From an uncultured Verrucomicrobiota bacterium (GTDB lineage Bacteria > Verrucomicrobiota > Verrucomicrobiia > Opitutales > Opitutaceae), in assembly GCA_903904685.1 (NCBI GenBank), contig CAIVDS010000058.1, forward strand, positions 1 to 64,000: a stretch of DNA of 64,000 nt. Reading direction: 5' to 3'. Under the pieces are notes generated by a model. That model saw only the letters and a list, made by a program, of their open reading frames with translations, made no database searches and had not been told where the DNA came from. The number at the start of each line of letters is the position of its first letter. Position 1 is the stretch's first letter. This document shows, one piece after another, positions 25,034-39,016 of the stretch. A program made the position numbers and the translations under genes.

Positions 25034-25191
25034 TTTAATCGCACGAACCGACCCGGCTAATGTCGCACGTCGGCACCGTGTTCAGCCACTCGCTCGTCCG
25101 GCCCCTCGACGCATCGCTTCATCACCCATCCTCCTCCGCCTTGATCGGTAGTTTATGAGCAACCACATGCAGCAAAATCTTGTTTCTGGTG

Positions 25192-26217
25192 TCAAAGAAC
25201 ACCGAGAGCATCGAGATTTTTTCGCAACCGCTGCAATGCGGTGATCTGATCGGATGGGATCAATCCGTGGCGATCCGGACCGACGTCGAGCAGTTGATTG
25301 CAGCCGCGTGAACGGGAAAGCAGCGCCTGCCCCAGCAACTCGATATCCGACTTTGGCCTGTCACCCTCAACCCAGAACCAGTGCGGGTTGACCGTATCGC
25401 AGACTTCGCCCGGGAGATAGTAATGTTTGCCGGCAAACTCATGCCAAGCTTGATGTCCGGCCGTGGCGCCTTGGTGAACATAGTAGCCGGGAACTTCGGT
25501 TTCGTAATTAAGGATGTCGGTCGGCCAGGCGCTGAAGAGCAGCTTTCCCCCGGTGAAGAAGCCCCTGTTCATCACGATCACGGCGTGCGGTTGCAACTCC
25601 GCGAGACGGTCGTAAAGCTGGATCCGGAACCCAGGGGAGAGAACGCGCGGGATATCGATCCAGAATTCGCCGATGTCGCCGTATCGCGTGGCGAGTTCCT
25701 CCATCTGTTTATATTGGAAGTCTTCATATGCGCGGGTCGCGAAGGAAGTATCCAGGCTCTTCGTATCGACGGCGGTGCCGTCCGACAGGAAATGGGGCGT
25801 GGTGGAGCCGAAGCGGTTGCGGTTGTCCCAGGAACAATAATAGAGTCCGGGAAGGATTCCGGCCTTTTGGCATGCGGCCACGAACGCATCGACGACATCG
25901 GTGCGGTTCCCGCTGGTGCCGACGTGGTAATCGTTGTGCGCGGTCGGCCAGAGGCAATGTCCCGCGACGTGTTTGGCGGTGAGCACCGCGTATTTCATGC
26001 CGGCATCTCGAGCGACGCCGATCCATTGCGAAACATCCAGTTTGTCGGGCGCGTAAGTCGCGGATGGCCGGTCGCCCCGACTGAATTCGTCGCCATCAAA
26101 AGTCGACATGCCAAAGTGAATGAACATGCCGAAGCCGAGTTTTTCCCATTGATGAAGCGCTTTCGGCGCCAGACGTTGGTCGCCGGATTTTCCGGCCAAA
26201 GGATTGTTTTCTTTCAT
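25192..26217 (-). CDS. GH29 alpha-L-fucosidase
   Basis: A 341-residue protein containing only the catalytic (beta/alpha)8 barrel: WEKLGFGMFIHFGMSTFDG, KYAVLTAKHVAGHCLWP, GLYYCSWDN and GEFWIDIP, where Asp188 is the expected nucleophile. Most GH29 enzymes add a C-terminal beta-sandwich, missing here. No signal peptide, so cytosolic. It would release L-fucose from imported glycans. Transcribed on its own, convergent with the GH116 gene; its 5' side faces a copy of the dispersed repeat. Confidence 0.88.
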   Translation of the reverse strand: MKENNPLAGKSGDQRLAPKALHQWEKLGFGMFIHFGMSTFDGDEFSRGDRPSATYAPDKLDVSQWIGVARDAGMKYAVLTAKHVAGHCLWPTAHNDYHVGTSGNRTDVVDAFVAACQKAGILPGLYYCSWDNRNRFGSTTPHFLSDGTAVDTKSLDTSFATRAYEDFQYKQMEELATRYGDIGEFWIDIPRVLSPGFRIQLYDRLAELQPHAVIVMNRGFFTGGKLLFSAWPTDILNYETEVPGYYVHQGATAGHQAWHEFAGKHYYLPGEVCDTVNPHWFWVEGDRPKSDIELLGQALLSRSRGCNQLLDVGPDRHGLIPSDQITALQRLRKNLDALGVL

Positions 26218-26285
26218 GATTTTCGAGAGCCACCCGAGATGCGAAGACGTAAGGAGTCATAGTGAGTTTTATCGATATATATTTT

Positions 26286-26404
26286 CCCGGACAGGGTGAA
26301 GGGCCGCCGCACGTGAACTTTGAGCGGGCTGCGAAGTCGTCGTTTTGTCGAATAGTCGGGGCTTCATTCATTGCTACAACTCGCCACGGCCCCTTCGGCT
26401 TTTT
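26286..26404 (+). repeat. Dispersed ~110-bp repeat, copy A
   Basis: Shares GGGCCGCCGCAC, GCTGCGAAGTCGTCGTTTTG, TCGAATAGTCGGGG and TTCATTCATTG in order with copies B-E at 29659, 32611, 33293 and 33880. It ends in CCCCTTCGGCTTTTT. This copy lacks four bases (TTTT-type) in the middle and has an altered TTGATGAAAC box. It fills the space between the GH29 start and the following hypothetical gene. Confidence 0.8.
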
Positions 26405-26469
26405 CTGTTTATGCGCCTATTTTTGCGTGCAGAGTTGGTTTTCTGAGGGCGTTCCCGTGAGAAAGGATT

Positions 26470-26850
26470 TCACTTTTCCACTGGCGACCACGGCTCGCCC
26501 CAAAGCAAAGTCCATTGCTGGGCGTGAGAGGGAGAGGGTAATTCGGAAAGCTGGTTGATCCTGATGCCGTCAAATCTCCCCGTCAGCTCTTTAAGCAACC
26601 GCCGATAGCCATGGTGGTCCTCTTTAACCCACCGATGGGGGCCATCGTCATCGACACATCGAAAGCCGATGCATATCTCATCGTTCGAGAAAAAATCATC
26701 TCTGAATGCGACGACCGAGCACACGTCCGACCAATCAATGCGAAACTTTTGCGTGGTTTCATGGATCACGGTAAACCCTGCGTCGTCGAACAGGATCTTA
26801 CACCGGCTCGGCTGGTGCCGTAAGAGCCCTTTGATGAGTTTTAAGAGCAC
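26470..26850 (-). CDS. Hypothetical protein
   Basis: A 126-residue soluble protein, start GTG before LLKLIKGLLRHQPS. The frame is open further upstream, but that part would run through the pilin terminator. The middle (ILFDDAGFTVI, FRIDWSDVCSVVAFRDD, ICIGFRCVDDD) looks like a small all-beta, PH-like fold; the C-terminus is rich in aromatic residues (QQWTLLWGEPW). No family recognised. It lies downstream of the pilin gene on the same strand, separated by a strong terminator, so it may rely on its own promoter. Confidence 0.6.
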   Translation of the reverse strand: MLLKLIKGLLRHQPSRCKILFDDAGFTVIHETTQKFRIDWSDVCSVVAFRDDFFSNDEICIGFRCVDDDGPHRWVKEDHHGYRRLLKELTGRFDGIRINQLSELPSPSHAQQWTLLWGEPWSPVEK

Positions 26851-26893
26851 GGCGGTGATCGGCCTGGGCCTGTTTTTGAATTTACCGGTTGAG

Positions 26894-26928
26894 CAAAAAA
26901 AACCGCCCCTGCGAATAGGGACGGTTTT
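26894..26928 (-). terminator. Rho-independent terminator of the pilin gene
   Basis: On the minus strand AAACCGTCCCT-ATTCGC-AGGGGCGGTTT followed by TTTTT, 15 bases after the pilin stop. A diverged copy of this terminator region recurs at 32726. Confidence 0.88.
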
Positions 26929-26942
26929 GCGCGGGAGAAGGC

Positions 26943-27293
26943 TCACTGCATGTACGTGAGGGTGCGCAGACCCGCGATGCCCGAGACGATGACCGGCGTG
27001 CCCTGCGTGAAGTCAGTAGGATAGGCCTCGTTGGCGACCGTACTCAGAGCCTTCACGTAGTAGGAAGAGCCGACCAGCGAGGCGATGTTCACCTGATTGG
27101 TGCCGTTCTCCAAGAAGAACTGGTCGGCGGCGGCGCCGAGCTGGCGCATGTTGTTGGTGACCGACTTGTCCTGGGAGGCGGTGCGAACCTTCTGGAACGC
27201 GGGAATGGCCATGGCGGCAAGGAGACCGATGATGACCACGACAATCATGATTTCGACGAGCGTGAAGCCCTTGGATGAGTTGGTATGTTTCAT
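26943..27293 (-). CDS. Type IV pilin-like protein (prepilin-type N-terminus)
   Basis: A 116-residue prepilin. It begins with a short leader and the type III signal KGFTLVEIMIVVVIIGLLAA: cleavage after Gly, Phe+1, Glu+5, then the hydrophobic helix. After the helix come about 75 residues with DQFFLENGTNQVNIASLVG and no disulfide cysteines. The size fits the minimal pilins or pseudopilins common in Verrucomicrobia (type IV pilus or type II secretion). No prepilin peptidase, ATPase or secretin is in the window, so assembly depends on genes elsewhere. Its flanks recur, without the gene, at 32726-32800. Confidence 0.9.
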   Translation of the reverse strand: MKHTNSSKGFTLVEIMIVVVIIGLLAAMAIPAFQKVRTASQDKSVTNNMRQLGAAADQFFLENGTNQVNIASLVGSSYYVKALSTVANEAYPTDFTQGTPVIVSGIAGLRTLTYMQ

Positions 27294-27398
27294 GGGAATA
27301 ATTCCTGATCGCTAACGTTGTAGGGAATAAAAGGCTCAAATGTGAGCATTGATCACCACGACGCCCAACATATCGATTTGTTACAGGAATAAGAGCAG

Positions 27399-27426
27399 AA
27401 CGATGTAAAGAAATTGTATATTCACG
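27399..27426. repeat. 28-bp element upstream of pilin, repeated at 32773
   Basis: AACGATGTAAAGAAATTG... matches 25 of 28 bases with 32773-32800, in the same orientation. It lies about 105 bases upstream of the pilin start, between it and the 3' end of the PEP-CTERM gene. Its role is unknown; it could belong to the pilin control region. Confidence 0.75.
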
Positions 27427-27487
27427 GACGAGGACCAAGCCCGCGCAGCAGATCTTCAAATACACGCTCCTCTTTACACGTTGGGTC

Positions 27488-28447
27488 TCAGGTCACCGCT
27501 TCAACCGGCCTGGGTTTGCCGCTGGAACCCGAACGACGCCAAGCGACCAATCCGAAAAGCCCCATGGCGGCGGCAATAGGTATCCAAGCCCCCGCTTCGG
27601 GCACCGGATGCCCGTCGATGGTCACGGCGTTGCCCACCTGGTAGACGAGCAGGCCGCTCGCATTGAGGGCGGTGGCGGTAGAGGCCGATGTCACGCTGTT
27701 GGTGTTGTCCACCTCGATCACGATGTAGTTGGTGCCGATCACAAACTGCGCGTTGCCAGAAGTGCCGGTACCATTGGTGCCGTTTTGGAGGGTGAACGAT
27801 GTCGTGTTGGTCCATGCGCTCAATCCGCTGGCCGAGGCTGTGCCGCTTGACGGCAGGGTGGTACCATTGCCGGTGGGATTCACGAAAACGTTATACTGGT
27901 CGTCCGCCGCGATCGTCATGGAGATCGAGATGGCGTTTGTCACGAGACTGCCGGTGCCTCCGGTCCCCGTGATGTTAAAGGCCAGGGTGTAGAGGAATTT
28001 TGCCTCCTTGTAATAGGTGGACCCGCTTTGTCTGGCGGTCGAGGTGCCGTTGCCGGGCAGGAAAAGTCCGCCCGTGTTGACCGAGCTGCCCGAGCTGTCG
28101 ATGGCCGCCCCCGGCGCGGTGATCCATTGCGCGGAGGAGGTGTTTTGCACATAGCCCGAGCCGGTGATGGATGTTCCCAACACCGTGTAAGCCGACCCCG
28201 TGTACGCACTGGTGCCGGTGTAGGTGGTGTTGTTGTAGAGCGCATAGGTCACGTTCCAGTTGGCGTCGAGCGACCCTCCCGACTGCAAACCGCCGCTGCT
28301 GTTCAATCCCGTGTAATACAACCCCGTGATATTGGTGGCGGAACCCGCCCAAACGCCATTGGCCATGCCGGCAAAGATGCCGGTCAGCAGGATCAAAAGC
28401 ACTGGATTTGGGTTTGTTCTCAACTGACTTATACTAGGTGCATTCAT
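27488..28447 (-). CDS. PEP-CTERM-type exported protein
   Basis: A 319-residue secreted protein. N-terminal signal peptide (PVLLILLTGIFAGMANGVWA), then about 250 residues rich in Gly, Ser, Thr and Asn (many NT/NG pairs, no cysteine), and a C-terminal sorting signal: VPEAGAWIP, a hydrophobic helix and the basic cluster WRR. This is the PEP-CTERM tripartite pattern with the VPEAG variant seen in Verrucomicrobia, processed by an exosortase. ATG at 28447 is preferred over an upstream TTG. No exosortase gene lies in the window. It is likely a matrix or surface protein, next to a secreted protease and the pilin. Confidence 0.85.
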   Translation of the reverse strand: MNAPSISQLRTNPNPVLLILLTGIFAGMANGVWAGSATNITGLYYTGLNSSGGLQSGGSLDANWNVTYALYNNTTYTGTSAYTGSAYTVLGTSITGSGYVQNTSSAQWITAPGAAIDSSGSSVNTGGLFLPGNGTSTARQSGSTYYKEAKFLYTLAFNITGTGGTGSLVTNAISISMTIAADDQYNVFVNPTGNGTTLPSSGTASASGLSAWTNTTSFTLQNGTNGTGTSGNAQFVIGTNYIVIEVDNTNSVTSASTATALNASGLLVYQVGNAVTIDGHPVPEAGAWIPIAAAMGLFGLVAWRRSGSSGKPRPVEAVT

Positions 28448-28474
28448 CTTTTTTCTCAACTCGATTCTTGTATC

Positions 28475-29488
28475 TCAGTCTCCCGCCTCGGCCAGCGCCC
28501 GGGCGGCGGCTTCGTCTTGCGCCGCGATTTTGCGCACCCAAAGATCCGTTTCCACTTCGTAAAGGTTCAGCTTGCCCGCCGTGCGGATGAGCGTGAGCCT
28601 TTTTACTGTCGCTCGCACGGGTTCGTCCGCCATGGGTGTCTCGCCCTTCGGCGATACACTTGCCTCGATCCGCAAGACGTCGTCGCCCGCCGCCTTCAAA
28701 TCGAGGTCGAACTGCCACAGATCCGCCCATGAGTTGATAACGTGAAACGTGCCTGCGCGCGTCTGTGGGTTGTAGGTGAAGCCATTGAGCACGATCTGGT
28801 GCCCCACGCGGCCTCCGCTCCACGGACGCTGGCCCACGAAGCCGGGAGGCAATGCCTGCCATATCTCGCGGGGGAAAGAGGCCAAGATCGGCCGGCCCTT
28901 GCGCAGTTGCGCGCGCGTCCAATCGAAAGGATCGACGCCCACCGGCAATGGATGCACATGCGGGCGGGGCGAAGGCGTTTCCACCAGAGCATTGAGCGCC
29001 TTGTAGTAGAGCGGGTTTTCCCACGGCTTGTCGGACGGGCAATTGTTGATGGTTTTATAGATCTCGGGCGTGTTGAGGCAATACCCCGCGATGTCGAGCC
29101 AGTGAACGCGGGCGTAGAGCATGCAAGTGCCGCCGATCTGGTCGCGCATGATGTTCGGCTGGCACAACTGGACCGTCTCCAAGCCATTCTCGATCTTACT
29201 CACCTCAATGGTGACCTTAAGCGTGGTTTCCACTTTCACTACCTGCACCGTGGACTTGCCCTTGGCGAGCGGACTGCGACGGGCGAGCGCCTCCATCCAG
29301 GCGCGATCCTCGGGTGTGAGGGAAGCGAGCGGCACCAGCCCGCGCGACCCGTCGGCATTCCGCACCGCCGCATAAGCTCCGTCGATACGCGCGGCCACCG
29401 CCGTGTGTTGCACGTCTGCGTCGGCGAACGCAGCGTCCGACAGGACGAGTGCTGCCAGAATCGCGACTAAGACGCGTGCGGGGTTCAT
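28475..29488 (-). CDS. Secreted papain-like cysteine peptidase
   Basis: A 337-residue exported protein: signal peptide VLVAILAALVLSDAAFADA, then a short SH3-like/SHD1-like module (about 35-70, AAVRNADGSRGLVPLASLTP), then a C1-like peptidase core. The papain tetrad can be traced: Gln117 and Cys122 in RDQIGGTCMLYA, His230 in GHQIVLNGF, Asn252 in HVINSWADLW. Extra cysteines at 109, 137 and 150 could form disulfides. It precedes the PEP-CTERM gene by 27 bases on the same strand, so the two are probably co-transcribed. The ATG before NPARVLVA is chosen because it gives the signal peptide. Confidence 0.72.
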   Translation of the reverse strand: MNPARVLVAILAALVLSDAAFADADVQHTAVAARIDGAYAAVRNADGSRGLVPLASLTPEDRAWMEALARRSPLAKGKSTVQVVKVETTLKVTIEVSKIENGLETVQLCQPNIMRDQIGGTCMLYARVHWLDIAGYCLNTPEIYKTINNCPSDKPWENPLYYKALNALVETPSPRPHVHPLPVGVDPFDWTRAQLRKGRPILASFPREIWQALPPGFVGQRPWSGGRVGHQIVLNGFTYNPQTRAGTFHVINSWADLWQFDLDLKAAGDDVLRIEASVSPKGETPMADEPVRATVKRLTLIRTAGKLNLYEVETDLWVRKIAAQDEAAARALAEAGD

Positions 29489-29658
29489 TGCCTCCAGCGC
29501 ACACCAGCCGGCCGCATAATCCAAGGACTTTCGTCTTCAACATAATGTGTTTGGCCATGGGTTGGCATACTCGGCGTATCCAGCAATTCGGCCCTGCCTC
29601 AATCCGAACAAAAATGGTTAATCCGAAGGTGTCTGGGAGAGTTTGATCAGCTTATGGT

Positions 29659-29780
29659 TTCTCGGACATGGTGATGGGCCGCTGCACTTGAGCTTTGAGG
29701 TGGCTGCGAAGTCGTCGTTTTGTTTTTATCCAACGTTCAGGGATTCATTCATTGATGAAACCTCCAACCCCTTTGGCTTA
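29659..29780 (+). repeat. Dispersed ~110-bp repeat, copy B
   Basis: Contains GGGCCGCTGCACTTGAGCTT, GGCTGCGAAGTCGTCGTTTT and GGATTCATTCATTGATGAAA, ending CCCCTTTGGCTT, 10 bases before the GH38 start codon. The region 29489-29790 (about 300 bases) holds no gene; apart from this repeat nothing was recognised in it. Confidence 0.8.
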
Positions 29781-29790
29781 ACTTAACCCC

Positions 29791-31917
29791 ATGAACATCC
29801 ATCTCATCTTTAATGCGCACATTGATCCCGTCTGGCTTTGGCCGTGGCAGGCGGGTCTCGACGAAGTCTTGGCGACGTGCCGCAGTGCTTGCGACCGGCT
29901 CGACGCCCATCCTGATCTGACTTTCTCGCGGGGCGAAGCCTGGGTCTATCGCCAGATTGAACGACTTGATCCCGCACTGTTTCGTCGGATTAGTCGTTTC
30001 ATCAGGCAGGGGCGATGGGAGATTGTGGGCGGCTGGTGGATTCAACCGGACTGCAACCTGCCGAGCGGGTTCGCGATGGAACGACAGATCGAAGAGGGGA
30101 AACGTTACTTCCGCGACCGCTTCGGATCTTTTCCGAAAGTTGGATATAATGTGGACAGCTTTGGGCATGGTGCCGCACTGCCCGGTTATCTGCGCGCCGC
30201 GGGCCAGCGTTACTATGTGATGATGCGTCCGCAGGAGCACGAGATGGCGTTGCCGGCGCGTCTCTTCCGTTGGCGGGGCTACGAGGGCGATCCTGAAGTG
30301 GTCACCTTTCGAATCGCGTCCGGATATACGACGAGAGAACTGAGCGAGAACCATATCGCGGCGTGCCTGAAAGGTCTGCACGAGGGGGTGAACGATACGA
30401 TGTGTTTTGTCGGAGTCGGCGATCATGGCGGCGGGCCGACCGAGCGGCAGATCGCATGGTTGCGCGAACATTGGAATGCCTTCGACGGGCACCAGTTTGT
30501 TTTTTCGACCCCGTCCCGCTACTTCAAGGCCGTCGCCAAACACGCCTCCTCCCTCCCGCTGGTGACGGGCGAACTCCAGATGCATGCCGTGGGTTGTTAC
30601 AGCGTCTACAGGCCGGTTAAGACCGCGTTGCGCCGGGCGGAGCATCTGCTCGACCAGGCGGGGCGGTTGCGCAACAAACTGACGCCGTCTCAAGAGCGCG
30701 ATGTTCCCGAGTTGGGCGAAGCGTGGCGCCAGGTCGCATTCAATCAATTCCACGACACGTTGGGCGGCACCTGCCTGCCGAGCGCTTATCCGCAAATCCT
30801 CGACCAACTCGGTGCGGCGGCGGCCGCGGCCGACGAAGTCATCCAGATTGGTTTTCGCGGTCTCCTGCAATCCGAAGGCGGGGATGTCTTGCAGCGTATC
30901 GCGGTGCACAATCCTTCGGCCATGGACTTTGACGGAACGGTTGAATTTGAACCGTGGCGGGCTGATCCGTGGAACGAGCGCACCCATCTTCTCGACGACA
31001 AGGGACGGCGTCACCCCTTCCAACGCATCCGCTCCGAAGCCATCGCCGGGAATGACAATACGGGGAAAATACTCTTCCCCGTCCGCGCGGCCGCTGGAAA
31101 AACCGTTTTCTTTCGCATTACGGAAGAGGGGAATCCGGCCCCGGTCAGAAGCGGTGTTTCCGGTTCCGCCACGAAGCTGAAAAACAACCGGGGTGTCTCG
31201 ATTGATGTCGCATCGGGCTGGAGTCTTTCGCTCGGCCGCCGGGCTGTAACCGTCCCCGTGCTCCAGCTTATTGTAGACCCTACCGATACTTGGTCGCATG
31301 GTGTTCGCACCTATGGAGTGTCGATCGCCGAACCTGTTTGGGAGAAACCGGAGTTGATTGAAACCGGACCGTTAAGGTCCGCTCTTATCCAGACCGGGAA
31401 AATAGGGCAAAGTCGCCTTCAGGCCGAATGGCGTGTCGAGGCGAATGCGTCGCATGCGGAGCTTCTACTGCGCGTTTTCTGGTCGGAAAAACACAAGCTG
31501 CTGAAATTGACCTTGCCGTTGCCGGCTAGCGCCAAGGAGCGGATCGATGGCGTGATGGGCGGGATGTTGGTTCGCCCCAACGACGGTCGGGAGTTGCCTC
31601 TGCGTGATTGGACTCGGGTGACCTGCGGCGGCAATACGCTTGGCGTGGTCGCGCCCGACATCTACGCGCTGGACGGGGATGGCGGGGAACTCCGATTCAC
31701 CTTGCTGCGCAGTCCATTGATGGCGCATCACGACCCGCAGCCCCCGGAGCACCCGCGCGGCGTGGTGTCGGATCAGGGCGAGCACATCTTCCGCTTCTGT
31801 TTCTTCCTCGGGGAAACCAACACGGAGCAACTCGACCGTCACTCGCTTCAACTGCAGCAACCGCCGCTGTTGGCCGATTTGACGAAGGGCATGCCAACCC
31901 GGTTTCCATCATTCTGA
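29791..31917 (+). CDS. GH38 alpha-mannosidase
   Basis: A 708-residue glycosidase. The zinc-site start MNIHLIFNAHIDPVWLWPW (His10, Asp12) is diagnostic, and GYNVDSFGHG supplies the nucleophile Asp122; GELQMHAVGCYS and FNQFHDTLGGTCLPSAY are further GH38 blocks. The C-terminal half is the usual beta-sandwich region. There is no signal peptide, so it trims imported mannosides or N-glycan pieces. The leader is formed by copy B of the dispersed repeat, which could therefore carry the promoter. Monocistronic. Confidence 0.93.
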   Translation: MNIHLIFNAHIDPVWLWPWQAGLDEVLATCRSACDRLDAHPDLTFSRGEAWVYRQIERLDPALFRRISRFIRQGRWEIVGGWWIQPDCNLPSGFAMERQIEEGKRYFRDRFGSFPKVGYNVDSFGHGAALPGYLRAAGQRYYVMMRPQEHEMALPARLFRWRGYEGDPEVVTFRIASGYTTRELSENHIAACLKGLHEGVNDTMCFVGVGDHGGGPTERQIAWLREHWNAFDGHQFVFSTPSRYFKAVAKHASSLPLVTGELQMHAVGCYSVYRPVKTALRRAEHLLDQAGRLRNKLTPSQERDVPELGEAWRQVAFNQFHDTLGGTCLPSAYPQILDQLGAAAAAADEVIQIGFRGLLQSEGGDVLQRIAVHNPSAMDFDGTVEFEPWRADPWNERTHLLDDKGRRHPFQRIRSEAIAGNDNTGKILFPVRAAAGKTVFFRITEEGNPAPVRSGVSGSATKLKNNRGVSIDVASGWSLSLGRRAVTVPVLQLIVDPTDTWSHGVRTYGVSIAEPVWEKPELIETGPLRSALIQTGKIGQSRLQAEWRVEANASHAELLLRVFWSEKHKLLKLTLPLPASAKERIDGVMGGMLVRPNDGRELPLRDWTRVTCGGNTLGVVAPDIYALDGDGGELRFTLLRSPLMAHHDPQPPEHPRGVVSDQGEHIFRFCFFLGETNTEQLDRHSLQLQQPPLLADLTKGMPTRFPSF

Positions 31918-32031
31918 CGATCCTGTCGCTCGGATAGCGGGTTGGTTGTCACGACATCAGATCGTAAGTTCGGACGGCTTGATTATAATTCATGCATTCC
32001 CCTTGCCCGTGACACGGGAATTGAGGACGGG

Positions 32032-32532
32032 TCATTTTTTCAACTCGCGCAAGAGCGACGGGATATCGAGAGGGCGGGTATACATCGCCAGCTTGCCATC
32101 TTCGCCAACAGGCCACTTTTCCTTGGGGCGATCAAAATACAGCTCCAGGCCGTTGTGGTCCGGATCATGCAGGTAAAGCGCTTCACTGACTCCGTGATCC
32201 GCCGCGCCATCCAGGGGAATCTTGGCCTCCTGCAGTCGCCAATAGGCGTCCGCCAAATCCGATCTCGTCGCATACAGCAGGGCGACATGATAAAGCCCGG
32301 TGGTTCCCGGCGCGGGAGGATGGCCTCCCTGACTATCCCATGTGTTCAAGCCGATATGGTGGTGGTATCCGCCGGCGGAAATAAACGCCGCCTGAGCACC
32401 AAAGCGCTGCATCAACTGAAAGCCCAGAACTCCGCAATAAAACGCCAGTGAACGCTCGATATCCGAGACACGGAGATGCACATGGCCGATGCGGACATCG
32501 GGAGATATTGGGCGAGCGAGTGTGGCATTCAT
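32032..32532 (-). CDS. VOC family dioxygenase-like protein (catechol-2,3-dioxygenase CatE type)
   Basis: A 166-residue glyoxalase-fold protein. First half IGHVHLRVSDIERSLAFYCG and GYHHHIGLNTWDS, second half LYHVALLYATRSDLADAYW and LHDPDHNGLELYF. The metal ligands His (GHVHL), His (YHVAL) and Glu (GLELY) follow the extradiol/CatE pattern, but the protein is about half the length of full CatE, so it may work as a dimer or be a lyase. The ATG at 32532 is preferred over GTG at 32544 because CAGGTGAA lies about 10 bases upstream of it. Confidence 0.82.
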   Translation of the reverse strand: MNATLARPISPDVRIGHVHLRVSDIERSLAFYCGVLGFQLMQRFGAQAAFISAGGYHHHIGLNTWDSQGGHPPAPGTTGLYHVALLYATRSDLADAYWRLQEAKIPLDGAADHGVSEALYLHDPDHNGLELYFDRPKEKWPVGEDGKLAMYTRPLDIPSLLRELKK

Positions 32533-32610
32533 GGTAAGATTCACCTGACGTTGATTATACCGCAGTGGGTTGATTTATCCACTCCCGGTTCAAATCTGCT
32601 TGAAAAAGAT

Positions 32611-32718
32611 CGAGGCCATGTTCACGCGGGCTTTGAGCGGATGCGAGGTCATCGTTTTGTTTTCATCGAATAGTCGGGGATTCATTCATTGATGAAACGT
32701 GCCGCGACTCCTTGGGCT
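32611..32718 (+). repeat. Dispersed ~110-bp repeat, copy C
   Basis: Contains GCGGGCTTTGAGCGGATGCG, GTCATCGTTTTGTTTTCATC, AATAGTCGGGGATTCATTCA and TTGATGAAAC, ending GACTCCTTGGGCT. The intergenic space 32533-32863 (331 bases) holds this copy and the pilin-flank junction at 32726 but no gene. Confidence 0.82.
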
Positions 32719-32725
32719 CGTTGGT

Positions 32726-32800
32726 GAATTTACCGGTCGAGCAAAAAACCGCTCTTGCGAACAGTGGCGTAAAACGATGTAAAAGAATTGTATATTAACG
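32726..32800. repeat. Junction of pilin downstream and upstream flanks without a pilin gene
   Basis: 32726-32765 resembles the pilin terminator region at 26878-26919 (GAATTTACCGGT, GAGCAAAAAA, CCGC, TTGCGAA in order). After only about 8 bases, 32773-32800 matches 25 of 28 bases of the pilin upstream element at 27399-27426. The two elements flank the pilin gene, 480 bases apart, at 26.9-27.4 kb. Here they are almost joined in the same order and orientation, as expected if a paralogous pilin cassette had been deleted. Confidence 0.65.
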
Positions 32801-32863
32801 CAGACCCCGAAAATAAGATGCCCAGATAGCGATATATTCGTATCAGTGCTAAGAACTATTATC

Positions 32864-33232
32864 ATGGCCAACATTTTACTGATCGATGACTTCGGGGATT
32901 TGCGCGAGATGATCGCCCTTTTTCTCAAGGAGCAGGGGCATGCCATCACCGAAGCGTGTGACGGCCTTCAGGCGATCCAATGTTACAAGGAGGAGAAATT
33001 CGACGTGGTCGTCACCGATATGAGCATGCCCAACAAGGATGGCGTCGAAACCATCGCCGAATTGCTCCGGATCAACGCGGACGCACGCATTGTCGCCATA
33101 TCCGGTGGCGACCGTCTTGTCTCACCTGAGGCTTACCTGGAAATGGCAAAAAATCTGGGGGTAAGGCAAGTGCTGAAGAAACCCTTTGGCCTCCATCAGT
33201 TCGAGGAATGCATTCTCGCCGCATTGGCCTGA
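32864..33232 (+). CDS. Stand-alone response regulator receiver (CheY-like)
   Basis: A 122-residue single receiver domain. The acidic pair in ILLIDD, phospho-acceptor Asp52 in VVVTDMSMPNKDG, Ser80 in IVAISGG and Lys106 in VLKKPF are all in place, so it should be phosphorylatable. There is no output domain. No histidine kinase lies nearby, so its partner is elsewhere. The ATG before ANILLIDD is chosen over an upstream in-frame ATG at 32846. The leader contains the pilin-flank junction, a possible inherited promoter. Confidence 0.92.
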   Translation: MANILLIDDFGDLREMIALFLKEQGHAITEACDGLQAIQCYKEEKFDVVVTDMSMPNKDGVETIAELLRINADARIVAISGGDRLVSPEAYLEMAKNLGVRQVLKKPFGLHQFEECILAALA

Positions 33233-33292
33233 CTGCAGGCCGGAACGTGGTTGGGTTACAGCAGCAAGTCCGTCTGTTTAACGGCGCTCTCT

Positions 33293-33369
33293 TGGCAGCC
33301 GTCGTTCTGTTTTCATCGAACAGTCGGGGATTCAGTCAGGGAGGAAACTCATCGCGTCCCCTTTGACTC
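33293..33369 (+). repeat. Dispersed ~110-bp repeat, copy D (5'-truncated)
   Basis: Contains GTCGTTCTGTTTTCATCGAA, CAGTCGGGGATTCA and GGAAACTCATCGCGTCCCC. The 5' third seen in copies A, B and E is missing. It runs into the 3' end of the minus-strand gene at 33349-33810 and supplies that gene's stop codon. Confidence 0.72.
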
Positions 33370-33810
33370 GTCACCGTTGATCTTGAGCACGGAATACTCC
33401 TCAACAATGTCCGTAAACTTGTCTCTGTGGGCGGGGCCGAGGTCAAGTCGAGCGAGACTCCACCCTCCCTGTCCGATGGTAATCCCATAGACCTGTGCGG
33501 TGGTCCCTTTGTAGGGTCCTGCCAATACCAAAACGCGGTCCCCGGTCTTCAGGGGCGCTCCATTAAACCTGCTGCAGATGGGCCTAATCCACGGCCAGCA
33601 TGTAAACATGCCGAGGAAAAATCCAAGACCAGCCGTAGCGGTCAGTGCGAGCAGCAGCAATGCCAACCCCTGCCAGTCGGACGCAATGCTGGTAAGTCGC
33701 ACACCATCCACAAGCATCCCGAGCACGAACGCTTCCATCACGCATGCTCCGATGATCCATGAGACGACCACTGGACGGGCGCAAATTCTGTTGAGCACAG
33801 TCGGCGTCAT
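33349..33810 (-). CDS. Membrane protein with C-terminal KOW-like motif
   Basis: A 153-residue hypothetical protein. Two hydrophobic segments (about 12-35 and 47-72) are followed by a soluble tail with LKTGDRVLVLAGPYKGTTAQ, which fits the KOW motif of NusG/ribosomal L24-type beta-barrels. The tail probably faces the cytosol. The last residues (DESKGTR) and the stop are encoded inside copy D of the dispersed repeat, so the original C-terminus may have been replaced. Function unknown; an RNA- or protein-binding membrane protein is one reading. Confidence 0.65.
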   Translation of the reverse strand: MTPTVLNRICARPVVVSWIIGACVMEAFVLGMLVDGVRLTSIASDWQGLALLLLALTATAGLGFFLGMFTCWPWIRPICSRFNGAPLKTGDRVLVLAGPYKGTTAQVYGITIGQGGWSLARLDLGPAHRDKFTDIVEEYSVLKINGDESKGTR

Positions 33811-33879
33811 CTTATAGCGGCGGACATAAAGCGCGCCAAGGAGGCGCGACGGGTTTGTTGATTCTTGTTTTTCATGACA

Positions 33880-33992
33880 ACGGGATGATCCGCCGCACTC
33901 AAGCTTTGGGCGGATGCGAAGTCATCGTTTTGTTTTCATCGAACAGTCGGGGATTCATTCATTGATGAAACTCGCCTCGGCTCCTTCGGCTT
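33880..33992 (+). repeat. Dispersed ~110-bp repeat, copy E (most complete)
   Basis: Contains a 7-bp stem ATCCGCC...GGCGGAT (about 33886-33914), then GATGCGAAGTCATCGTTTTG, TTTTCATCGAACAGTCGGGG, ATTCATTCATTGATGAAAC and CGGCTCCTTCGGCTT. Used here as the reference copy. The space 33811-34065 has no gene otherwise. Confidence 0.85.
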
Positions 33993-34065
33993 GATTGCTT
34001 TTTAAGTTGCTGGAATAGTGCGCCATGAATACCAGCAAACATCTGCAATGCTAAGTTTTCCACGC

Positions 34066-35055
34066 ATGGATACATTCATAATCTTGACGGTAGTTAGTGC
34101 TATTCTCGCATTAAGTGCAGTCGTGGTAAAATGGAGTGATGATCAGTCAAAGGCTGCAGCAGAGGCTGCAGCAGAGAAGGTGGAAAAGGCTCGCCAAGGG
34201 AGTTTGGCTGAATTGCGCCAGCAGGAAATTATTCAGATGTTCGTAGCTAAAAATGAAATCGAAAGTCTCCGAACGCAGCTTGAGCGTAAAACAAAAGAAG
34301 TGGCGCCGAATACGACTGACGATCATGGGGACTTATCCGCTACTTTTACTGAAGGGCTAGACAGGTCGATAAATTCGGCCCTGAGGGAAATTAACGAAGA
34401 AGCCGTGCTTGCCGTTAAAAAACGCGCAGAGGATCTAAGGAAGAGAAAAGAAGCTGAGCAAAAAGCCGAAGAAATTAACCGCGTAGCTAGGGCCGTTCTC
34501 GTGAAAGTCCGGCAAGCTGTTCTTACGACTTTTAACGCAGCACCTAAGCTGGGGTTCGAGGTGGTGGAAGAAATGAGCCCATACGCCCCTGAATGGGTAA
34601 AAGGCGTTTATCCGATTCCCGGGAAAATAGTGTTCGTTCAAGGAGACGAACGCCTACGGCAAGAATTCAAAGATTTTTATCTTTTTAAAATATCATCCAA
34701 AAATGGAATGTGTGCCGTATGCAAATGGAGCCCGGGAATAGTGTCGCCAGAAAATCTGCCCGATACGCCTCCCTCCCTAGTCATAGCGGCTGGCGAAGGA
34801 AGCGACCCTCACCCTTGGCTACCTGCGGCAGCGCACTTCATTTTTACAGGAGAAACACGCGCTAGTGGCCCCATCATCAGTGTGAGGTACGAGCCTTCGT
34901 TTGAGACGAAAGCCGAGATTATCTTGCACCTTGTTACTGCCCACAACGACGGGAAGTTAAGTGCAGAAGAGCTTGCATCTAAAGTTACGATAGAAGTTCT
35001 GAAGCACCTGCGAGGCATGGAGATTTCGGAGCTCGAAAAAAAGGGAGCACGCTAA
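34066..35055 (+). CDS. Low-GC hypothetical protein with membrane anchor and coiled coil
   Basis: A 329-residue protein, not recognised. A single N-terminal membrane helix (IILTVVSAILALSAVVV) is followed by about 110 residues of Ala/Glu/Lys-rich coiled coil (KAAAEAAAEKVEKA, KKRAEDLRKRKEAEQKAEE) and then a globular C-terminal domain of some 180 residues containing YLFKISSKNGMCAVCKWSPG. Other starts at 34018 (GTG) and 34048 (ATG) are in frame. Base use differs from neighbours: 53 G+C in 120 bases at 34201-34320 (44%) by hand count, with many A-ending codons. This suggests recent transfer. It stands alone between repeat copy E and the heptad locus. Confidence 0.7.
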   Translation: MDTFIILTVVSAILALSAVVVKWSDDQSKAAAEAAAEKVEKARQGSLAELRQQEIIQMFVAKNEIESLRTQLERKTKEVAPNTTDDHGDLSATFTEGLDRSINSALREINEEAVLAVKKRAEDLRKRKEAEQKAEEINRVARAVLVKVRQAVLTTFNAAPKLGFEVVEEMSPYAPEWVKGVYPIPGKIVFVQGDERLRQEFKDFYLFKISSKNGMCAVCKWSPGIVSPENLPDTPPSLVIAAGEGSDPHPWLPAAAHFIFTGETRASGPIISVRYEPSFETKAEIILHLVTAHNDGKLSAEELASKVTIEVLKHLRGMEISELEKKGAR

Positions 35056-35124
35056 GCTACCCATTTGTTACCCTGCTCTGTTGGTAGGCTGGATGTTTCG
35101 GAGCGGTCGGCCCGGAGGGGCCCC

Positions 35125-35796
35125 CTACCTTTCTTGATCAGACCGGGTGGGTTTGGGGTTGGTAGCCGACTTGCCCGCTGGCGGATGGTTTTGGGCTTCC
35201 GGCGAGTCTTTTAAGGCTTTTGGCGATTCCCGACTGTCTGTTGGCGGAGATTTTTTCGCCGTTGGTGCATCCCGGTTGCGTAAAAACGGTTCCCGATAGG
35301 CCAAAAATGGCCTCCGACAATCCGAAAACGAATTACGGCAATCCATAAAAGTCTTCCGATAATCCTCCAAAGGATTCCGATCTTCCTTCAGGGGCTTCCG
35401 AACTTACTTCTGGGTATTCCGATCTTCCTTCTAAGGATTCCGAATCAGTAATAATGCTTCCCGAATCTCCGTTGGCGAAGGCTTTTTTGGCGTTGGTGAA
35501 GCCATTTTCTCCTTCTTTTGAAGTCTTTTGTGTGGAAACGAAGGGTTTTTGCCCGGAAACAGTGGATTTTTGTCTGTCGAAGCATCCCCGGCGCTGTCCG
35601 GCCATGCCGGTTTTGCCAATGGTCGGAGTTTGCGGCCCGTCGGCGGAGGGCGCACGAGCACCGGTTCGCTCGCGGCGAGACGCAGGGCGAGGTCGCACGC
35701 ATTCCGGCATCCGGCGTTTGCGATGAGCGCGGCGGCCAACACCGTTTCAACCGACCCGCCCCGACCTCGGACCAACGGCAAGGCCGAACGCTTCAT
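35125..35796 (-). pseudogene. Broken heptapeptide-repeat gene (21-bp tandem repeat)
   Basis: One minus-strand frame from ATG 35796 to the stop at 35125 is interrupted by TAG (35431-35433) and TAA (35404-35406). From about 35570 to 35140 it is a degenerate tandem repeat with 21-bp period: roughly 20 units whose peptide consensus is YRKPFxD-like, for example DCRNSFS, DCRRPFL, AYREPFL, and degenerating at both ends to forms such as PKKPSPT and ALKDSPE. The period continues unchanged through both stops, so this is a single decayed or recoded locus. The first 70 residues are not repetitive and were not recognised. The alternative is non-coding tandem-repeat DNA. Confidence 0.5.
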
Positions 35797-35857
35797 CCAA
35801 CCCCTCGCCAGAGAGCGGGCTTATACGACCGGTGACGAACGCTACAGGCGGATTTGA
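35762..35857 (+). pseudogene. IS481-type transposase 3' fragment
   Basis: The last 31 codons of this frame, starting RPRTNGKAERFIQPLARE and ending at TGA 35857, match the conserved end of the integrase (rve) core of IS481-family transposases, whose catalytic Glu lies in NGKxERF. The rest of the transposase and the inverted repeats are absent. It overlaps the 5' end of the heptapeptide pseudogene on the other strand by 35 bases. Confidence 0.65.
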
Positions 35858-35884
35858 TGTCGAGGATTGGACTTGCGAGGGGGC

Positions 35885-35910
35885 TTGGAGGCTCATTCAT
35901 TGATGACAAG
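35885..35910 (+). repeat. Dispersed repeat, copy F (short fragment)
   Basis: Only the box TTGGAGGCTCATTCATTGAT followed by GACAAG remains, corresponding to the GGATTCATTCATTGATGAAAC part of the other copies. It is just upstream of the HD/PDE-like gene. Short, so less certain. Confidence 0.4.
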
Positions 35911-35965
35911 TTCCCCTGCTCAACTCCAACTTTGCAGCCTTAACCAACTCCAAGGCTCGTTTTTC

Positions 35966-36799
35966 ATGCTTTCCAAACTTTGCACGGTGGCCCGGGTGAG
36001 AGACGAAGCGAAGGCCCATTTGCATCAGCTGTCTCCCGCGCATCCCTCCACGTTGATCGACGAGGTGTCCGCATTGGTGGAGACGCTGTTTCATGGACGT
36101 CATCCCGATTACCAAAAGGTCGATCTGAGGTATCATAACCTCCAGCATACGGTGCTGGCCACCCAGTGTTACGTCGATTTGGGCGGCGGGTGTGCGAGGC
36201 AGGGTTCCACGCCCGGGTTTGGGCCGCGCGAGTTCTCGCTGGGTTATGCGGCGATCATGCTGCACGACAGCGGCTATTTGAAGACGCGCGACGACGTGAC
36301 CGGAACGGGAGCCAAATACACCACCACCCATGTCCAGCGCAGTTGCGTGCTGGCGGGGATCATGCTGCCCGGCCTTGGCTGCAGTCCCGAGGAGATCGAA
36401 GGCGTGCAAAACGCCATCCGCTGCACCGGACTCACGAGCAGGATCGAGCAGATCGTGTTCAAGACGGCGAGCCAGCGGACGACCGGTTGCATGGTGGCCA
36501 CGGCCGATTATCTGGGGCAGATGGCCGATCCGGATTATCCCGACAAGCTGCCCAGTCTTTATCTGGAATTTGAGGAGGCCAACGATTTCAACGGCGTTCC
36601 CCCGGAGCAGCGGCCGTTTAAGTCCGCCAAGGATCTGATGGCCAAGACAACCGGGTTTTGGAACGGCTTTGCCATGCCCAAGCTGGAGCGCGAATACGAG
36701 GGCGTTTACCGCTGGCTGGCGCTGCCGGACGGCGGTAATCCCTATCTTCGGGCCGTGGAGCAAAATCTGGCCGCCATCGCAGCCCGTGCGGTGAAGTGA
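35966..36799 (+). CDS. HD-domain phosphohydrolase resembling class I cyclic-nucleotide phosphodiesterase
   Basis: A 277-residue HD-superfamily enzyme. The metal ligands follow the eukaryotic-type PDE order: YHNLQH (His57, His61) corresponding to the PDE signature HNxxH, LHDSGY (His100, Asp101), His122 in TTTHVQRS and Asp181 in TADYLGQ. It is soluble. The class I PDE reading is inference; other HD hydrolases share part of this pattern. Alternative in-frame ATG at 35903 would add 21 residues. It converges with an adenylate cyclase gene, 24 bases between the stops, so it may degrade the cAMP made by its neighbour. Confidence 0.75.
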   Translation: MLSKLCTVARVRDEAKAHLHQLSPAHPSTLIDEVSALVETLFHGRHPDYQKVDLRYHNLQHTVLATQCYVDLGGGCARQGSTPGFGPREFSLGYAAIMLHDSGYLKTRDDVTGTGAKYTTTHVQRSCVLAGIMLPGLGCSPEEIEGVQNAIRCTGLTSRIEQIVFKTASQRTTGCMVATADYLGQMADPDYPDKLPSLYLEFEEANDFNGVPPEQRPFKSAKDLMAKTTGFWNGFAMPKLEREYEGVYRWLALPDGGNPYLRAVEQNLAAIAARAVK

Positions 36800-36823
36800 A
36801 CGGTCGGAATTCCGCTGGGTCGT

Positions 36824-39016
36824 TTACTTTTCCTTCATCACGTAGGTGCCGTCCCAATTCGCCGCAGGCGGCTCGTCTTGGTAGTGCCGGGTGATGCCGA
36901 TGTAGACCAGCGAAGGATTGCTGTGCACACCGGGCGTGACTCCGGGCTGATTGGATTCAAGTGTTTGACTTTGGGTAAAAAGCCCGATGGCCGCCATCCA
37001 GTCGCGGGTATAGAATTTTTCGAGGGCCGCCGCAAAAATCCGCAGACATTCGCGGGTTTGCGCGGAGACGTTTTCCTTCAGCCCGACGATCTCGTAGATG
37101 GGAACCGCGGAGGAACGGCCCTTGACGACGATGCGGCCAAGCGCACGGAAGACGACGCGGTCGCCGCCCGCCTTCTCGCAGGCGATCTTGGTGGCCTCGG
37201 TGCACATCGTATAGACGCCCCAGCTCTTGGCGCCGGATTCCATGCGGGCGGCGAGGTTTACGTTGTCGCCCATCATCGTGTAATTGAAACGAGTGCGGCT
37301 GCCGATGTTGCCGACGATCGTCTCGCCGCTGTTCAACCCGATGCGGGATTGCATCTGCACGACGATCTCGGGCCATTTGGAACCCTCGGAGCGCCACTTC
37401 TCGCGCAGTTCTCCCAGCTTTAGCTGGATGCGTTGGCTGGCGATGCAGGCGCGCAACGCATGATCGGGCAGGGGCAGGGGTGCGCCGAAGATGGTCACCA
37501 CGGCGTCGCCGATGTATTTGTCGAGCGTGCCGAATTCCTCCTGCAGGATATCGGTGCAGGCCGTGAGGTATTCGTTCATCAGGTCGACCAGCTGGTCGGG
37601 CGGGATGAGTTCGGAAAAGGTGGAAAAGGACTGGATGTCGGAGAAGTAGGCGGTGATGTCCTCCTTGTGTCCGCCGAGCTGGGGCGACTCGCCCGATTCG
37701 ATCATGCGGTTGACGAGGGTCGGGGACAGGTAGGTGCCGAACATCCCCTTGATTTGCTGTTTGGCGCGTTGTTCGCGGATGAGTTGCCGCACGATCATGA
37801 AAATCTGCAACACGCCGAAGCCGAGCACCGGCCAGAGCAGGGGAATCCAGAGACTGAGTTTGATCCAGAGAAGCGTGGCCAGGCCGAGATAGGCCACCGG
37901 CACGCCGAGAGCATACAGTCCCTGCTGGTAGAGTTTGCGTTTTGTGAAAAACACCAAGCCGATCGCTCCAAAGCCCAGCGCACCCAAGAGCACCGGCCAT
38001 GTTGGGCTGCGGTGCGCGTAGTCCTCGCGCAGAACATTTTCGATCACATTGGCGTGGACCAGCACGAGCGGGGTGAGGTTGCTGAACGGCGTGGGCCCAT
38101 TATCGGTGAGTCCCGTTGACATCTGGCCGACGAGCAGAATTTTCCCCTCGACGCTCGGCAAATCGGCGCGGGGGCTGTTTTTCTGGTAATGTTGGACATA
38201 ACCGGCGAGCAGTTTGCTGTAGCCAAACTTGTTGCAGGTGGCGTAGCTGACGCGGTAATTGATGGAATACATGCCGCTCGCATCAATCGGGATGCGGCGA
38301 CGAACGTCCTCGCCCTCCAAGTATATGGCGTCGCCTAGAACGACGCGCACCTGCCCAGGATTGAGCCGCCAGTAGATCATCAGGCTTTGCAGTGAGAGGC
38401 TGGGCAAGACACGGTCGCCGGTGCGTTGAAGCATGGGAACCCTGCGGATAATTCCGTCGGCATCCGGATCGGCATCGCAGAAGGCGGTGAACCCGCTGGT
38501 GCGCAGGACAGGGACGGGAAGCAGCGAAAACGGGGTGGTGGGAATCTGGTTTAAATTTCCCGTTATCCGGGTGATCGGCGCGGTCAGGTCATTTTCAACC
38601 GGAGCTGTCGCACGGGGCTCCTGGTCTGTGGTATATGCGCCGAAGATGACGCGGCCGGCCAGTTTTTCGGCCCCGACCACCAGATATTCATCTTCGGACT
38701 TGGGCTCTGAAAATAAGATATCCCAGGCCACTACGGACGGCTTCCCGAATGAAATCGCATACATGAACTGGCCGTGCACCTGGCGGGTCCATGGCCAGCC
38801 GCCAAATTCCTTTATTCCATCGTCGTCTATTCCGACGATGACGATGCGTTCGTCGGCGCCGGGCTGGATATCCGTGCGCAGACGGGTGAGATGATCGAGC
38901 GCGCCGGATTCGAGTCCTTGCCACCACAAGGTGGAGTTCAACGCCAACGCCAAGCCAACGCATACGAGAGTCGGTAAAATATGCTCCTTCAGAAAACCAG
39001 TCAGACGCTTTTTCAT
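36824..39016 (-). CDS. CHASE2-domain adenylate cyclase (class III)
   Basis: A 730-residue membrane protein. After an N-terminal membrane helix (12-35) lies a periplasmic CHASE2 sensor (about 40-330, DERIVIVGIDDDGIKEFGGW), then three membrane helices (about 340-415) and a class III cyclase domain (about 455-630). Metal Asp460 (AYFSDIQSF) and Asp504 plus the adenine-selecting Lys500 (LDKYIGDAVVTIFG) are present, with NYTMMGDNVNLAARM later, so it should form cAMP. The ATG before KKRLTGFLKEH gives the membrane start. A CHASE2 ligand cannot be inferred. Confidence 0.92.
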   Translation of the reverse strand: MKKRLTGFLKEHILPTLVCVGLALALNSTLWWQGLESGALDHLTRLRTDIQPGADERIVIVGIDDDGIKEFGGWPWTRQVHGQFMYAISFGKPSVVAWDILFSEPKSEDEYLVVGAEKLAGRVIFGAYTTDQEPRATAPVENDLTAPITRITGNLNQIPTTPFSLLPVPVLRTSGFTAFCDADPDADGIIRRVPMLQRTGDRVLPSLSLQSLMIYWRLNPGQVRVVLGDAIYLEGEDVRRRIPIDASGMYSINYRVSYATCNKFGYSKLLAGYVQHYQKNSPRADLPSVEGKILLVGQMSTGLTDNGPTPFSNLTPLVLVHANVIENVLREDYAHRSPTWPVLLGALGFGAIGLVFFTKRKLYQQGLYALGVPVAYLGLATLLWIKLSLWIPLLWPVLGFGVLQIFMIVRQLIREQRAKQQIKGMFGTYLSPTLVNRMIESGESPQLGGHKEDITAYFSDIQSFSTFSELIPPDQLVDLMNEYLTACTDILQEEFGTLDKYIGDAVVTIFGAPLPLPDHALRACIASQRIQLKLGELREKWRSEGSKWPEIVVQMQSRIGLNSGETIVGNIGSRTRFNYTMMGDNVNLAARMESGAKSWGVYTMCTEATKIACEKAGGDRVVFRALGRIVVKGRSSAVPIYEIVGLKENVSAQTRECLRIFAAALEKFYTRDWMAAIGLFTQSQTLESNQPGVTPGVHSNPSLVYIGITRHYQDEPPAANWDGTYVMKEK

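Follow-up and report, generated by a model that had tools for sequence, protein, structure and literature searches.

In the part of their account on which we draw, Di Nocera et al. (2013, PMC3733652) describe TIRtrons/TIRYT elements, in which a RAYT-like gene lies between long terminal inverted repeats (TIRs) and the TIRs also form repeat families, in dimers or clusters. For Y1 enzymes in general, the absence of a target duplication is expected (PMC2817692). As shown below, several of these features recur in the genome studied here, namely a Y1 gene with its HUH motif and Tyr, long inverted flanks and a TIR that is repeated as a family. The family itself is apparently undescribed, and we assign it with good confidence to a TIRYT-type Y1 element, a kind that is already known. 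Its copies are very probably non-autonomous miniature elements, similar to MITEs or REPINs, that derive from the ends of a Y1/HUH (RAYT/TIRYT-like) element on contig C82. The family, its palindromic anatomy, the end that it has in common with the C82 gene and its one-way clusters were all seen directly, as were its lack of target duplications and its absence from congeners.

The window analysed is a stretch of 64 kb (G000:C58:1-64000) from a 3.23-Mb draft genome, G000, assembled in 114 contigs. The first-pass annotation had claimed six copies of a repeat in this window, made of blocks in a fixed order on a single strand. Five copies (A to E, Table 1) are convincing, and both the order and the single strand hold for all of them; the window has three occurrences of block GATTCATTCATTGATGAAAC, where 0.01 would be expected, and four of block GCGAAGTCRTCGTTTTGT, where 0.15 would be. 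The sixth, fragment F at 35885, did not stand: since it consists only of a short run and is missed by the family profile, both at E<=1 and at E<=1e-3, its membership in the family is unproven. A profile built from full copies and run over about 145 kb of contig C58 at E<=1e-3 recovered copies A-E only, so that the earlier statement that no others lie in the 64 kb was borne out. Copies A and B have 98 nt in common at 80% identity, reaching further left than the unit first described, copies C and E are 91% identical over 89 nt, and copy E is the longest copy in the window and the nearest to the consensus. Two relations to genes that had been pointed out were also confirmed: copy B stops 6 bp short of the ATG (29791) of a gene that Pfam assigns to the GH38 alpha-mannosidases, and the minus-strand ORF 33349-33810 takes its TGA stop from copy D.

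Table 1. Copies of the repeat family in the 64-kb window, with their match to the family profile.
Feature	Position	Strand	Evidence
Copy A, full-length unit	26243..26402	+ (orientation of the first-pass annotation)	family profile 140.8 bits, E 9e-42
Copy B, full-length unit	29617..29785	+	family profile 140.7 bits, E 1e-41
Copy C, degraded left arm	32584..32728	+	family profile 114.8 bits
Copy D, right half only	33296..33375	+	family profile 63.8 bits, model positions 9-88
Copy E, full-length unit	33829..34003	+	family profile 152.9 bits, E 2e-45
Fragment F, doubtful, not counted as a copy	35893..35913	+	15-nt run in common with the right arm

Other repeated sequences were observed in the same stretch. 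A pilin-like gene (26943-27293) is bracketed by segments 26865-26923 and 27399-27426, which recur side by side at 32713-32800, after copy C, without a pilin gene, as if the gene had been lost from there or had never been present. A second, different repeat block, which includes a 21-nt tandem repeat (TTCCGAT...), occupies positions 35093-35700 of the window, and has relatives on C19, C21, C35, C41, C67, C85 and elsewhere in the genome. Repeats of this 21-nt type adjoin, in several cases, a multicopy gene for a protein of about 240 aa with no assigned function (L041:5825-6547 on C114, with similar genes on C43, C19, C98, C9, C113, C14 and C94).

Alignment of the genomic copies gave a unit of about 166 bp, of which the approximately 110 bp proposed earlier are the right two thirds. 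The unit reaches left to AGCCGAAGGRRTCGG... and is therefore an imperfect palindrome, in which consensus ends of 42 nt (CCRAAGGGGTCGCGGCGAGTTTYATCAATnnATGnnTnCCCG), 83% identical as inverted repeats, flank an asymmetric interior. A short hairpin tagged with a GTAG-type motif is absent as the repeated end, the consensus end being CCRAAGGGGTCGCGGCGAGTTT. The repeats have no coding capacity, a copy and its closest relative in the family are typically 70-87% identical over the compared part, and by profile many copies are halves.

As DNA, the consensus forms a strong fold (-42 to -47 kcal/mol), and copies are found close to start and stop codons, as would suit a functional RNA or regulatory element (a terminator, an mRNA stabiliser or a promoter module) kept by selection near genes. 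We regard this as very improbable. None of the 4227 Rfam models matched window positions 24000-38000 at E<=1, and folding of the aligned copies gave a covariation term of 0.17 kcal/mol, a value close to zero that lends no support to a maintained structure; pairing is often broken in individual copies, truncated halves are common, congeners are without the repeat, and its position relative to transcription is not constant. The promoter module suggested by the first-pass annotation is likewise unsupported, since copies are found ahead of genes, behind them and between them, in differing arrangements.

The proposed partner of the repeats is the only Y1 gene found. The pattern of the repeat's end matched, among other places, C82:14634-14656, and the continuation of this match overlaps the stop codon of a transposase gene. 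A Y1_Tnp search of the genome returned exactly one gene, C82:14659-15618, which encodes a protein of 319 aa with a HYH motif and a downstream Tyr, and which scores 49 bits with PF01797 against a cut-off of 23. With NCBIfam NF047646 (REP-associated tyrosine transposase) the score was 76.6 bits, just below the cut-off of 80, and the protein is therefore labelled RAYT-like and not placed under that model; a sequence search of the PDB gave no match at 0.01. On each side the gene carries one of a pair of inverted 25-nt repeats, 96% identical, that bear the family's end. Compared with the 28-nt core of the consensus arm, the two gene ends agree at 26/28 and 23/28 positions, values that may be slightly inflated by one short piece beside the transposase gene that was included in the consensus input; the pattern match at C82 had been obtained before that consensus was built. 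The score of 26/28, listed twice as one site in two overlapping stretches, is the highest in 661 kb, with a maximum of 18 in the shuffled control and 12-20 for the TIRs of nine congeneric homologues. Just outside the core, the copies and the C82 ends differ, with KCC before RAAGG in the copies and TTA or TTT at the gene. All ten intact homologues examined, our own gene included, have TIRs of 21-40 nt, and these differ between lineages, mostly with GGGGTC-like starts. Two congeners have their own TIR in multiple copies, G010 at 7 places and G002 at 28, where a reversed-pattern control gave 0.

Since the ends of the repeat match the ends of this gene, the repeats are most likely small passenger mobile elements, and we infer that the C82 transposase may have moved them. 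By means of its tyrosine the enzyme would cut the conserved ends in single-stranded DNA, the small unit would re-insert elsewhere without duplicating its target, and inserted copies would afterwards degenerate where they lie, for the most part in accessory regions beside gene ends. Transposition itself was not observed, no site being seen both empty and filled. The idea of a MITE-like element, already put forward from the window itself, gains support from the inverted ends, the dispersal and the non-coding nature of the repeats, from the lack of the family in 12 congeners and from the presence in this genome of a transposase gene that bears these ends. Long inverted ends are also typical of DDE elements, and given a draft of 114 contigs in which several copies lie near contig ends, an autonomous element could be missing; the repeats would then be a MITE of another, unseen DDE transposase, and the Y1 gene would simply lie in or beside a copy. 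We consider this improbable. Target duplications of 5-9 bp, which the first-pass annotation had raised, were not above control in the 13 copies tested, the end is present on either side of the Y1 gene, and the homologues of this gene are flanked by TIRs in every congener examined, each with a sequence of its own, a regularity that a chance neighbour does not explain. As probable passengers of the Y1 element, the repeats add an undescribed family to the little-studied TIRYT group and offer a clean pair of enzyme and end to test.

With respect to distribution, BLASTN of the whole genome found about 30 places, and the profile found 48, of which 34 were strong matches (>35 bits), in 661 kb chosen around known matches. 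These counts supply the copy number that had been left to be checked, and they show a family dispersed through the genome, not confined to one zone. Most copies are clustered, in larger groups on C58, C108 and C92 and smaller ones on C114, C112 and C21, and two lie at contig ends (<=0.3 kb from the end), on C69 and C56. The repeat was found in 0/12 genomes of the same genus, and among 55 relatives searched the sole match was one of 26 nt, in a genome of another genus. Plasmids gave no BLASTN match to the repeat, and a 23- or 21-nt piece of its right arm had no exact match in viral contigs or in the genome contigs of 84,980 species, an out-of-genus negative that is weak evidence because exact patterns are insensitive. 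The family thus appears from these comparisons to be species-specific; absence from both the genome and the relatives, which would have spoken against a repeat family, applies to the relatives and not to the genome.

In the window, positions 22-36 kb show little DNA match in congeners and conservation begins at about 36,014; the window cluster therefore lies in accessory DNA. The view of the repeats as markers of an accessory region is upheld by their absence from the 12 congeners and their dispersal over the genome. The genes between repeats are ordinary ones, for glycoside hydrolases, lipases/esterases, MacB, a glyoxalase, a receiver domain, a beta-lactamase-fold protein and small membrane proteins. 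They are found in either direction and encode up to 708 aa, and the site of a copy relative to genes varies (before, after or between them). On C108, a gene for a Sel1-like repeat protein lies on the plus strand between a left-half and a right-half copy (region L031:10463-11110).

Another finding concerns the orientation of neighbouring copies, which can be scored because the interior is asymmetric, unlike that of symmetric inverted pairs. Among strong copies less than 5 kb apart, 18/19 neighbour pairs have the same orientation (binomial p 8e-5, pairs treated as independent), and with weak matches included 20/23 neighbours agree (p 5e-4). In a manual tally of the three large clusters, based on ORF and Pfam lists, no copy was seen whose two flanking genes both point the opposite way. 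This agreement is an unusual feature, and one that the transposase-end explanation does not itself predict. A lagging-strand bias was considered and rejected, with five loci for it and four against (by contig GC skew, taken for C56 from the last 18 kb and partial for several contigs), and the agreement is independent of the replication strand, contrary to the bias relative to replication that the first-pass annotation had raised. Local hopping, which predicts greater likeness within clusters, was not supported (0.709 within vs 0.703 between, permutation p 0.26). A congener, G002, has 19 TIR copies on one strand within 16 kb (C2:968745-984596; L117/L118), with a TIR unrelated to this family. 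That stretch is poor in genes and made up of several further repeats, interleaved with one another, and of a 490-bp unit that is duplicated, so that duplication may explain part of the cluster. Our guess is that the one-way clusters arise by strand-preserving movement. Taken together, the local agreement and the cluster in a second species make a strand-preserving spread of repeats or genes testable.

One-way arrays, repeats at stop codons and small accessory genes between them also recall integrons, and the genome has a true integron integrase (C19:841-1770, 420 bits vs a cut-off of 265). According to such an explanation the repeats would be attC-like sites of an integron or CALIN, each gene with its repeat forming a cassette moved by the integrase. 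However, 0/13 copies have RYYYAAC in the first 45 nt or GTTRRRY in the last 45 nt, in either orientation, and with these core sites missing the repeats are not attC sites. Canonical GTTAGGC and GCCTAAC sit upstream of the integrase gene, the repeats are unrelated in sequence to the real attC of the genome, no copy was recovered by the profile in C19:1-20000, next to the integrase, and the inter-repeat genes, with their two directions and their length, do not fit either. We judge attC identity to be extremely unlikely. As an observation apart, C19:1-1770 (L044) is a complete-looking integron start, in which GTTAGGC and GCCTAAC bound a small membrane-protein cassette, and contig C19 ends in the attC. 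The clusters could alternatively be gene-cassette arrays run by the Y1/HUH transposase, integron-like without an IntI-type recombinase, in which direct repeats would bound whole genes that, once excised as single-stranded circles, would re-insert in one set orientation; this seems to us decidedly improbable.

Two loci bear on recombination. The C114 cluster lies at a break (C114:66330-66484) in the order of nadA and an M23-peptidase gene that is common to congeners, and a conserved esterase-HrpA block has the C36 copy at its border; as signs of recombination these are suggestive only. The other side of the C114 break, on C40 (C40:6862, L178), has nadA with a different neighbour and no repeat by profile, and repeat-to-repeat recombination is therefore not shown. 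The recombination scar proposed in the first-pass annotation is accordingly not established, repeats being present at only one of the two breakpoints.

Compared with known systems, the miniature elements described here stand closest to the TIRtrons/TIRYT as presented in the part of PMC3733652 cited above. As in that description, the RAYT-like Y1 gene lies between long terminal inverted repeats and not between REPs, its TIR is found again as a family of moderate abundance, in dimers and clusters, and the TIRs of congeners have the reported GGGGWSAS motif, e.g., GGGGTCAG. Differences from what is described there are that our own TIR, GGGGTCTG, is one base off GGGGWSAS, that two ends in a fixed pairing, with an asymmetric interior between them, are repeated as one unit, and that neighbouring copies are co-oriented. 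With REPINs and REPs and their RAYTs the family shares an inverted pair of short end sequences and one dedicated Y1 gene between two inverted ends, but it differs from them in the lack of a GTAG-type tetranucleotide hairpin, in its longer ends and in a copy number of tens, not hundreds, with strong divergence (PMC3116915, PMC2817692). Like the bacterial MITEs ERIC, NEMIS/Correia and RUP, the repeats are intergenic, non-coding, within 70-300 bp and bounded by terminal inverted repeats; unlike these, they show no target duplication and their partner is a Y1 and not a DDE gene, and their 42-nt ends exceed the 15-30 bp TIRs of the MITEs listed in the cited part of PMC3733652. Finally, the one-way arrays of palindromic sites between genes resemble the attC arrays of integrons and CALINs, from which the family is set apart by its lack of core sites and by a sequence unrelated to that of the genome's own attC.
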